A stretch of 64,000 nt of DNA from positions 496,001-560,000 of the forward strand of contig NZ_JAJCTD010000001.1 in NCBI RefSeq assembly GCF_020564565.1, given 5' to 3'. Source of the stretch: Rhodobacter sp. Har01. GTDB taxonomy: Bacteria; Pseudomonadota; Alphaproteobacteria; Rhodobacterales; Rhodobacteraceae. Below the pieces are notes generated by a model. The model did not search any database, was not told the origin of the DNA, and was given only the letters and a program-made list of their open reading frames with translations. This document shows positions 29,910 to 33,610 of the stretch, piece by piece; positions within the stretch are counted from its first letter, which is position 1; each line of letters starts with the position of its first letter. A program made the position numbers and the translations under genes.

Positions 29910-30725
29910 ATGGCCGATTTGCTGCGGAAACCTTCGGGCGTGCGGGGTAGGGTGCATGACATCACCCCCGAAGGCGCCGGCTGGGGCTATGTGGGCTTTT
30001 CGCTGTATCGGCTGGCGCCGGGGGACGTGGCGGAGGAGGCGACCGGAGATCGCGAGATGATCCTGGTGCTGGTCGAGGGCAAGGCGCGGGTGACCGGGGC
30101 GGGGCAGGACTGGGGGGTTCTGGGCGCGCGGATGGATGTCTTCGACAAGACGCCGCCACATTGTCTGTATCTGCCGAACGGGGTGGCATGGCGGGCGGAG
30201 GCGACCACGCCTTGCACGCTGGCGGTCTGTTCAGCGCCCGGCAGGGGCAGGCATCCGGCGCGGCGGTTGGGGCCGGAAGGGATTGCCCTGACCCAGCGGG
30301 GGACGGGGGCCAACACCCGCTTCGTCAACAACATCGCGATGGAGGCTCTGGACGTGGCCGACAGCCTCTTGGTGACCGAGGTCTTCACGCCGGCGGGAAA
30401 CTGGTCAAGTTATCCGTCGCATCGCCATGACAAGGACGATTTCCCGCACATGACCTATCTGGAAGAGACCTATTATCATCGGCTGAACCCGCCCCAGGGG
30501 TTCGGGATGCAGCGGGTCTATACCGAGGACGGCGCGCTGGACGAGTGCCTGGCGGTGAAATGCCATGACGTGGTGCTGGTGCCGAAGGGGCATCATCCTT
30601 GCGGTGCTCCCTACGGCTACGAGATGTATTACCTGAACGTCATGGCCGGACCATTGCGGAAATGGCGGTTCCAGAATGACCCCGACCACGACTGGATCGC
30701 CCGGCGCGACACCCCCGGCGTCTGA
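29910..30725 (+). CDS. iolB: 5-deoxy-glucuronate isomerase
   Basis: 271 residues with a bicupin fold. Metal-binding histidines appear in SSYPSHRHDKDD, EETYYHR and GHHPCGAPYGYEMYYLN. It isomerises 5-deoxy-glucuronate to 5-dehydro-2-deoxygluconate, the substrate of IolC. Sits 60 bp after iolE, separated by the repeat at 29859, whose hairpin may lower its expression relative to iolCDE. Its end is 43 bp before the start of the kinase gene. Confidence 0.95.
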   Translation: MADLLRKPSGVRGRVHDITPEGAGWGYVGFSLYRLAPGDVAEEATGDREMILVLVEGKARVTGAGQDWGVLGARMDVFDKTPPHCLYLPNGVAWRAEATTPCTLAVCSAPGRGRHPARRLGPEGIALTQRGTGANTRFVNNIAMEALDVADSLLVTEVFTPAGNWSSYPSHRHDKDDFPHMTYLEETYYHRLNPPQGFGMQRVYTEDGALDECLAVKCHDVVLVPKGHHPCGAPYGYEMYYLNVMAGPLRKWRFQNDPDHDWIARRDTPGV

Positions 30726-30768
30726 GCCGGGGCTTGCCCTGCGGACCCTGGCCGCGCTAGGGGAAGCC

Positions 30769-31794
30769 ATGCCCGAGCTTGCCGAAATCCTGGAGGCCCT
30801 GCCTTTGCCTGCCCTGGCGGTGGACCGCAGGGACCGGCTGGTCGCCGCCAATGCCGCGGCGCTGGCGCTGCTGACGGCGGGGTCGGTCGGGCGTCCGCTG
30901 GCCCTGGCAATCCGGGCGGCCGACCTGCTGGCGGGGGTGGCCGAGGTGATGGCAGGGGCGCCGGCGCGGGACCTGCGGTTGCGGCTGGGGCGCGACGGGG
31001 CCGAGCATGTCTTTGCGGTCACGCTGGCAGGCCTGGGCGAAGGCGAAGGGCGGCAGGTGCTGGTGACCTTTCGCGACACCAGCGCGGAAGAGGTGGCCGA
31101 GGCGATGCGGCGCGACTTCGTGGCCAACGTCAGCCACGAGCTGCGCACACCGCTGACGGCACTGCTGGGGTTCATTGAGACGCTGCAAGGCCCGGCGCGC
31201 GAAGACCCGGCGGCGCGCGAGCGGTTCCTGGCCACCATGGCGCGCGAGGCGGGGCGGATGAACCGGCTGGTGCGCGACCTGTTGCAGCTGAGCCGGGTCG
31301 AGGCCGAGGAACGGGTGCGCCCGCGCGAGCCGGTGGACCTGCTGGGGGTCCTGGCCTCGGTCCGCGCGACCTTGCGGCCGGTGGCCGAGGGGCTGGGGTC
31401 CGAGGTGCGGATCGAGGCGCCGGAGGGGCGGGTGACGGTTCCGGGGGACCATGACCAGCTGGTGCAGGTGTTCTCGAACCTGATCGAGAACGGGCTGAAA
31501 TACGGGGCGGCGGGGCAGGCGGTGCGGGTCACGGTCCGCCGCGAGGCCAGCCTGCGGGGGCCGGCGGTTCGGGTCGAGGTGGCCGACCGGGGCGAGGGGA
31601 TCGACCCGGTCCACCTGCCGCGCCTGACCGAGCGGTTCTACCGGGTCGACAGCCACCGCAGCCGGGAAAAGGGCGGGACGGGGCTGGGGCTGGCCATCGT
31701 CAAGCATATCGTGGCCCGGCACCGGGGCTGGCTTCGGATCGAGAGCGTGAAGGGGGAGGGGTCCACCTTCATCGTGATCCTGCCGGAGGGGTGA
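30769..31794 (+). CDS. PhoR-like sensor histidine kinase, soluble
   Basis: 341 residues. A PAS-like N-terminal domain (to about 105) precedes a HisKA domain with the phospho-accepting His123 in VSHELRTPL and an ATPase domain with NLIENGLKYG, DRGEGID, FYRVD and GTGLGLAIVKHI. The FYRVDSHRSREKGGTGLGL block is typical of PhoR. No membrane segment is visible, which is unusual for PhoR but found in some alphaproteobacteria. The ATG at 30769 has AGGGGAAG before it; the frame opens 31 codons earlier inside iolB. No pst or phoB genes follow, although in relatives they commonly do; the disturbed region begins right after this gene. Confidence 0.85.
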   Translation: MPELAEILEALPLPALAVDRRDRLVAANAAALALLTAGSVGRPLALAIRAADLLAGVAEVMAGAPARDLRLRLGRDGAEHVFAVTLAGLGEGEGRQVLVTFRDTSAEEVAEAMRRDFVANVSHELRTPLTALLGFIETLQGPAREDPAARERFLATMAREAGRMNRLVRDLLQLSRVEAEERVRPREPVDLLGVLASVRATLRPVAEGLGSEVRIEAPEGRVTVPGDHDQLVQVFSNLIENGLKYGAAGQAVRVTVRREASLRGPAVRVEVADRGEGIDPVHLPRLTERFYRVDSHRSREKGGTGLGLAIVKHIVARHRGWLRIESVKGEGSTFIVILPEG

Positions 31795-31800
31795 GGATGG

Positions 31801-31821
31801 GGTGTCCCATGATGGGACACC
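31801..31821 (+). terminator. Palindrome just after the PhoR-like gene
   Basis: GGTGTCCCAT and ATGGGACACC around a single G, seven bases after the stop codon. As RNA it would form a short hairpin; there is no clear T run, so it could equally be a protein-binding dyad. Confidence 0.45.
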
Positions 31822-32061
31822 TTCCGGCCGAAAGGAATTCAAGGGGTTACGAGAGCGTTTTAGGGATTTGTTAAGGTTTGGGGGTGGTTGGGGCTGACTC
31901 GAAGGGCGAGGGGAGCCGGTTCCCGGTGGTGCTGCCGCTGGGGAGAGGTGGGGGCCGCAAGGGACTCCGTCTGTCCACGGTGGACATTTTCGGATTATGA
32001 TTTGGAAGCAAAGAGTTGGGCGTGGGTTTTGGGGGGGTTTGTTAAGGGGGTGGCTAATGGA

Positions 32062-32164
32062 GGGTGTGCATTCATTGCGCACCTTGCTTTAGGCGTCGGT
32101 TGGGCTTGCTTGGCCGAGGTCCCGCAGGCGGTTGGCGGTGAAGGTGCGCAATGAATGCACATCC
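32062..32164. repeat. Long inverted repeat, 20-bp perfect arms
   Basis: GTGCATTCATTGCGCACCTT at 32066-32085 is the exact reverse complement of 32141-32160; pairing extends to 32062/32164 with one mismatch. The arms enclose 55 bp. The match marks the border between the kinase region and the low-GC TIR-like segment. It could be the ends of a short mobile element, a recombination site or a very stable RNA hairpin. Confidence 0.85.
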
Positions 32165-32165
32165 T

Positions 32166-32336
32166 ACGATGACGCGGGCCGCACAGCGCATCGGCATCGC
32201 GGTGGTCCTGGTGCAGGCGAAGGACGAGGCCGCGCGGGCGTGGTATCTGGCACAGGCGGAGTGGCTGGAGTTCCCGGCGGGGAGCAGAACGTCGTGGTTG
32301 CCGGCGGCAGTTGTCACTGTGCTAGCGATTGAATAG
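32166..32336 (+). pseudogene. C-terminal remnant of a GNAT acetyltransferase
   Basis: The frame ending at 32336 encodes about 55 residues that look like the end of a small GNAT acetyltransferase: AAQRIGIAVVLVQAKDEAAR, then AWYLAQAEWLEFPAGSRT and WLP. The A-K-D-E-A-A-R-x-(F/W)-Y pattern and the SRTLWLP-like end are typical of GNAT toxins that pair with DUF1778 antitoxins. The acetyl-CoA-binding part and N-terminus are missing; the similarity begins next to the right arm of the inverted repeat, so the gene seems cut there. Recognised by eye only. Confidence 0.55.
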
Positions 32337-32455
32337 TTTACGTATTGAGACGGGCCTTTCAATGGTAGGAGCATATGAAATGGACAATACTCTAGGCGAC
32401 GTCTGCAGTTTTCTTGTCCAGGTGGTCAGAATTTAACCGGAGGGTCCAGGTTTCT

Positions 32456-33583
32456 ATGAAGTTGCACGAGGAGCTATTTTCAATTGCTGAACGTTTAGAA
32501 GGCGCTGCAACAGATGAAGCTCTGAAAAATGCCGAGCCAGCCTTAGAGAAACTTGAAAAAGCCGCTACGGAAGCAGGACGAGCCTTCTCGGGCTCATGGC
32601 AGGGTTATCACGCTAACGTGTACTACAAGGGCCTTCAGCCCCCGCCTCCGGGGGCACACTTCAGCCAAGAGTGGGGGCTATTGCACACTTTCGGCAGCCT
32701 TGGCAGCAAAGGAGATTGGGAGGAACAGGACCCAATAAAGCTGGCTTCTGAACTGCGAAAGAAAGCTGGAAAACCAGATATGGCGGAAATTCTTGCTGCG
32801 TCACAGTCTGCAATTGATAGCTTTAAGGATGCAAAATCAGAGATAGAATCTATTCTTGCTTCTGCCGATACGCGAGGCACAGATCAATTCCTGAGCAAGC
32901 TTCGCGGTGAACTAGAGAAGATTGAACCAATGACGGCCGGGGATGTCGTTCAATCTTGGGCGCCAACAGGTACGATTATGACCAGAGACACAGTCACCTT
33001 TGGGCAGGGAACCAGGGTGCCTCCTCACAAAGTAATCCTAGCGGAAGTTGCCTCAATTCGACATAGCTTCGGAATTTGTGCTTCAGCTGCAAAGATCGCT
33101 TGGAAAGCAGGCTCTCACATGGAACGCACACAGAAGAACGAAGTGCGTCAGGCTCGCATTGGCACAAATGTCTTTATAGGGCATGGTCGCTCTCCTTTAT
33201 GGAGAGAGCTTAAGGACTTTGTGCAGGATCGCCTTCATCTGCCATGGGATGAATTCAACAGAGTTCCAGTCGCTGGTGTAACCAACCAAACGCGTCTATC
33301 AGAGATGCTGGATGCAGCGGCCATCGCCTTCGTAATAATGACAGCGGAAGATGAAACAGCCGAAGGCGCGATGCAAGCGCGGATGAACGTGATACACGAA
33401 GTTGGCCTTTTCCAAGGAAGATTGGGCTTTACAAGAGCGATTGTCCTGCTTGAAAGCGGTTGCACGGAGTTTAGCAACATACAGGGTTTGGGGCAAATTC
33501 GGTTTCCAACTGGAAACATCGGCGCTTGCTTTGAAGAGGTTAGGCGCGTTCTTGAGCGAGAGGGGCTCGCCGAATCCGCGTGA
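32456..33583 (+). CDS. Low-GC protein with C-terminal TIR-like domain, probable defence effector
   Basis: 375 residues. Residues about 238-375 match the TIR-like nucleotide-binding domain seen in CAP12/Pycsar TIR effectors: NVFIGHGRS at the start, FVIMTAEDE in the middle, NVIHEVGLFQGRLG with Glu315 at the likely NADase position, then AIVLLESG and a closing helix. Residues 1-235 are mostly helical with a WQGYHANVYY and QPPPPGAHFSQEWG block, no family known to me. G+C is near 50 percent against about 67 percent around it. The ATG at 32456 follows GGAGGG; a TTG at 32414 would add 14 residues but has no ribosome binding site. No cyclase or partner gene is adjacent. Family members degrade NAD on phage infection; activity here is inferred. 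Confidence 0.7.
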   Translation: MKLHEELFSIAERLEGAATDEALKNAEPALEKLEKAATEAGRAFSGSWQGYHANVYYKGLQPPPPGAHFSQEWGLLHTFGSLGSKGDWEEQDPIKLASELRKKAGKPDMAEILAASQSAIDSFKDAKSEIESILASADTRGTDQFLSKLRGELEKIEPMTAGDVVQSWAPTGTIMTRDTVTFGQGTRVPPHKVILAEVASIRHSFGICASAAKIAWKAGSHMERTQKNEVRQARIGTNVFIGHGRSPLWRELKDFVQDRLHLPWDEFNRVPVAGVTNQTRLSEMLDAAAIAFVIMTAEDETAEGAMQARMNVIHEVGLFQGRLGFTRAIVLLESGCTEFSNIQGLGQIRFPTGNIGACFEEVRRVLEREGLAESA

Positions 33584-33610
33584 TTCAAGCAAATTGCGTC
33601 CGCTGCCCCC

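Follow-up and report, generated by a model that had tools for sequence, protein, structure and literature searches.

What kind of element is the long inverted repeat that lies downstream of a PhoR-like sensor histidine kinase gene (30676–31794, + strand) in the 64,000-nucleotide stretch of Rhodobacter sp. Har01 DNA analyzed here (hereafter, the window)? The initial annotation described 20-bp perfect arms around 55 bp and judged a chance match of that length very unlikely, and both statements hold. The arms (GTGCATTCATTGCGCACCTT) are exact at 32066–32085 (+) and 32141–32160 (−), with a gap of 55 bp; the perfect repeat is even 21 bp long (32065–32085 / 32141–32161), and with one mismatch allowed it reaches 25 bp (32061–32085 / 32141–32165). 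Even with three mismatches allowed, the window contains no third match to GTGCATTCATTGCGCACCTT; the repeat is the sole perfect inverted repeat of at least 16 bp with arms within 120 bp across the window, and none of 40 Markov-generated windows contained a 20-bp repeat of this kind. The inverted repeat is confirmed as real and statistically striking.

Each arm is itself a small imperfect palindrome, GGTGYGC-ATTCATT-GCGCACC (GGTGTGC-ATTCATT-GCGCACC), within a non-coding element of ~109 bp (32059–32167). We propose that this element is very probably an orphan REPIN, a doublet of two REP units placed in an ancestor by a RAYT, the transposase thought to mobilize REP repeats, and now immobile and decaying. 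The left unit (GGAGGGTGTGCATTCATTGCGCACC, 32059–32083, + strand) carries the tag GGAG and the right unit (GTAGGATGTGCATTCATTGCGCACC, 32143–32167, − strand) an intact GTAG; each differs from the family consensus, GTAGGGTGCGCATTCATKGCGCACC, at two positions, and a 59-bp spacer (32084–32142) separates them. Because these GTAG-type tags stand at the outer ends, the doublet is head-to-head. The consensus REP, in the form proposed as a RAYT substrate, is GTAGGGTGCGCATTCATTGCGCACC. With stems of 7–8 bp, each unit folds alone into a small hairpin, and the RNA of the whole doublet is predicted to fold into one long hairpin (−66.8 kcal/mol, z = −7.1). A comparison with Rfam gave no family above its gathering score; the only candidate, mir-124 (18.7 bits, where the gathering score is 49), was rejected as a sub-threshold match such as any long hairpin might give.

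When genome contigs were scanned for the doublet, it was recovered at the same place in a Rhodobacteraceae metagenome-assembled genome (L172 of G425), so that the doublet was, most simply, inherited at the phoR site. Identity between the window and G425 was 48/51 in the REP units, compared with 31/59 in the spacer, whose length is nearly kept while its sequence has diverged, and 215/290 in the flanks (units versus the rest, Fisher p = 8e-5, for two genomes and alignment columns that are not independent events). In these two genomes the arms have changed less than their surroundings, which could reflect selection or arm-to-arm correction. The G425 doublet carries GTAG on both sides; because it has GTAG where the window has GGAG, the left tag of the window is probably a mutated GTAG, and the ancestral state would fit the tag pattern of a REPIN. 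GTAG is essential in E. coli, and some changes to it are tolerated by other systems (PMC8266576).

Searching the rest of the genome and its relatives for the arm, as the initial annotation had advised, revealed a REP family that is dispersed outside this genome. The arm occurs only once in the window's own genome (3.9 Mb, 99.95% complete), which holds this single doublet and no second full-length copy, and only G010 of 13 further congeneric genomes matched it, with two mismatches. Across the family, GGTGCGCAATGAATGCACAYCCTACG, with three mismatches or fewer, matched 24 of the 395 genomes sampled, the window's own among them (23 of the 394 others), and a reversed control sequence matched no listed genome of the scan. 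Many copies, single or paired, are present in G122, G330, G063, G423 and G425: the single-contig genomes G122 and G330 have 31 and 22 REPs, G425 has 22 units, and Solirhodobacter olei (G423) has ~100 (106 listed, a few of them one palindrome seen on both strands). In relatives the units stand singly, head-to-head or tail-to-tail, with gaps of 6–104 bp between close partners. The arms are therefore not the unique, unconserved sequence that would have spoken against a mobile element: absent elsewhere in their own genome, they recur in many relatives, and the doublet is kept at an orthologous site in one of them. We call it an orphan, not a resident population, because there is one doublet here and repetition only in relatives. 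The same single copy counts against a REPIN, since copying within the genome cannot be demonstrated from it. One match was obtained in the viral contigs searched. This Rhodobacteraceae-type REP doublet also occurs twice (L170, L171) in CP059262.1, a record titled Exiguobacterium profundum that may be mislabelled.

RAYT genes were sought with two models, Pfam PF01797 and NF047646 (cut-off 80 bits). The Pfam result, which left REP-rich genomes without a RAYT, was discarded as a limit of that model: NF047646 found RAYTs in many of these genomes, and it gave 182.6 bits to the RAYT of G425, which Pfam did not match at all. Neither model detected a RAYT in the window's own genome, which probably leaves the copy stranded there as a relic that can no longer move. 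In six relatives (G313, G166, G330, G423, G425 and, as a fragment, G050) a RAYT gene is directly flanked by the same REP, and different GTAG REPs flank the RAYTs of further relatives. At the level of whole genomes the association is mild, with a RAYT over the cut-off in 12 of 23 REP-bearing and 26 of 80 REP-negative genomes, and we therefore regard the physical linkage as the stronger evidence. Also against the proposal, no RAYT was detected in the REP-rich genomes G122 and G063; REPINs are retained by E. coli genomes that have no RAYT as well (PMC8049555). The REP flanking the RAYT beside L201 in the nearest relative (G425) is a CATGG variant, not the GTGTGC/CATTG variant of the window.

By analogy with the biochemistry of RAYTs from E. 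coli, Stenotrophomonas and Marinomonas, which act on single-stranded GTAG hairpins (PMC8266576), a RAYT would once have bound the GTAG-plus-hairpin units in single-stranded DNA, cut next to them and, in an ancestor, inserted the doublet between phoR and a nucleoside hydrolase gene. The present copy would be immobile and decaying, with no RAYT to act on it and its left GTAG changed to GGAG, and it may act passively as an RNA or DNA hairpin downstream of phoR. Against this proposal, the doublet itself yielded neither a target duplication nor a recognizable empty site of insertion.

The element resembles the REPINs of Pseudomonas fluorescens SBW25 (PMC3116915) in having two inverted REPs around a diverged spacer that together form one hairpin, in arms better conserved than the spacer, and in the linkage of the REPs to RAYT genes; it differs in its REP sequence and in that its genome has one doublet and no RAYT. 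It also shares with the head-to-head dimers of the GTAG super-family, as described in PMC3733652, the outer GTAG (intact on its right unit), the 7–8 bp stem, RAYT genes flanked by the repeat, and a spacer within the usual range of 20–100 bp. The text of that study makes no mention of Rhodobacter, Roseobacter, Paracoccus or Ruegeria, and the REP family of the window may or may not belong among the 24 GTAG families that it describes. RAYT genes with flanking GTAG hairpins, as in the REPtrons (TnpA-REP plus REPs) of E. coli, Stenotrophomonas and Marinomonas (PMC8266576), are found in relatives of the window, whereas the window keeps the substrate alone, with no REPtron and one mutated tag. In the open-access papers searched, we found no description of REPs or RAYTs in Rhodobacteraceae. 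The analysis assigns a striking repeat to a known class and names its likely mobilizer, and its added value lies in the comparison of the locus and in the RAYT genes that bear the same REP in relatives. The locus offers a clean case of a REPIN without its RAYT whose arms are more alike than spacer and flanks across two lineages, and whether an orphan REPIN has a passive function is therefore testable at one locus.

The surroundings of the doublet differ among relatives. Eight of the 13 same-genus genomes have phoR facing the nucleoside hydrolase gene across an empty gap of ~20–150 bp; another (G003) carries an unrelated insert there, and in the rest the two genes were not seen together. In the window, what directly follows the right REP (32168–32308, + strand) is a 3' remnant of a gene for a GNAT (TacT-like) toxin, 65% identical in amino acids over 46 residues to an intact gene in G220; in G425 the doublet likewise adjoins this remnant, which there contains a stop codon. 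What follows the remnant differs: a CAP12/Pycsar-type TIR-domain gene (PF10137; 32456–33583, + strand) in the window, and a ThsB-type TIR gene with a SLATT/DUF4231 gene in G425. In G220 the slot contains a single REP together with a TacA-like antitoxin gene (PF08681, 5e-24) and the intact GNAT gene (PF00583, 2e-8). Judged by these predicted gene contents, the slot carries anti-phage or toxin-antitoxin genes that differ from one related genome to the next, and the TIR gene is a separate cargo of the slot that holds the doublet, a neighbor of the REPIN and not part of it. Because the low-GC cargo (50% G+C, ~32309–33605) starts only at ~32309, the doublet lies ~140 bp outside it, on the other side of the GNAT remnant; the earlier placement of the repeat at the edge of a foreign segment was dropped after comparison with G220 and G425. 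The cargo at 32456–33583 is a single TIR gene with no recognizable partner gene. Related plasmid-borne proteins (37–54% amino acid identity) are known from Agrobacterium, Rhizobium, Ciceribacter and Klebsiella, and no plasmid record covering most of the segment was found.

Three other explanations deserve weighing, of which the one that would make the doublet chiefly an RNA structure is possible but rather unlikely. A hairpin in the phoR 3' UTR or the leader of the TIR gene could stabilize phoR mRNA or limit read-through, and would explain the conservation of the arms. The very stable fold agrees with this, as do the better preservation of the arms than of spacer and flanks in two lineages and the fact that the right arm's only change, of the G-to-A type, still allows a G-U pair in plus-strand RNA; effects of REPs on transcription and on the half-life of mRNA have been reported in other systems (PMC8049555). 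However, that conservation comes from two genomes, there is no intrinsic terminator (a short GC-rich hairpin followed by a T run) in 31700–32500, and the REP is absent at the site in most same-genus genomes. The REP family is, moreover, dispersed over many loci in relatives, and its sequence is therefore not specific to the phoR/TIR locus.

We consider it very unlikely that the doublet is a recombination site at which the defense cargo of the slot is exchanged. The same doublet and GNAT remnant do precede different TIR cargo in two genomes, and a toxin-antitoxin pair occupies the slot in a third, but the cargo boundary lies past the remnant, the other end of the cargo has no second copy, no recombinase was found in the cargo, and the exchange needs no more than ordinary homologous recombination in the flanks. 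For the recombinase site proposed in the initial annotation the support is indirect: RAYTs are single-strand HUH nucleases, and hairpins of this sort are what they recognize (PMC8266576). The suggestion, made there too, of a miniature element stands for a non-autonomous REPIN and fails for a classical transposon with target duplications. A classical MITE, which has terminal inverted repeats and relies on a DDE transposase for its movement, would also be short (~109 bp) and non-coding with inverted ends, yet this origin is extremely improbable: each end is itself palindromic and bears a GTAG tag, the units of relatives are arranged singly, head-to-head and tail-to-tail with varying gaps where a MITE has a fixed length, the linked transposase is a RAYT, and neither a target duplication, by eye, nor a second full-length copy in the own genome was found.

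A further reading is that REPs take part in remodelling this small defense slot. A RAYT acting at the phoR-side REP might have deleted the antitoxin gene together with the 5' portion of the GNAT gene, leaving the REPIN joined to the 3' remnant, with TIR-type cargo arriving later and more than once. In G304 the same GNAT gene is truncated no more than ~20 bp from this position, next to a further REP-like palindrome, which can be cited for such remodelling. We hold this reading to be unlikely, and a single ancestral deletion would account for the junction equally well.

Other repeats are present between the phoR 3' end and the doublet. At 31800–31885 lies a dispersed repeat of ~90 bp, consisting of a hairpin (GGTGTCCCATGATGGGACACC) and then a conserved tail ending in TTTTAGGGATTTGTTAAGG; it has ~20 copies in the own genome, many of which begin a few bases past a stop codon, and none was detected in the 13 same-genus genomes. 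A variant of it at 31970–32050 has another hairpin (TGTCCACGGTGGACA) and a similar tail (GTTTGTTAAGG), and at the same place G425 and G220 (L172, L263) carry still other GC-rich hairpins before TTAGGGGTTTGTTAGGGG, as if the hairpin sequence had changed at this site while its pairing was kept. Between the two repeats, 31905–31948 is a second, degenerate phoR 3' end that resembles the corresponding ends in G425 and G220 more closely than the functional end (31724–31794) does; it suggests a past replacement of the 3' part of phoR.
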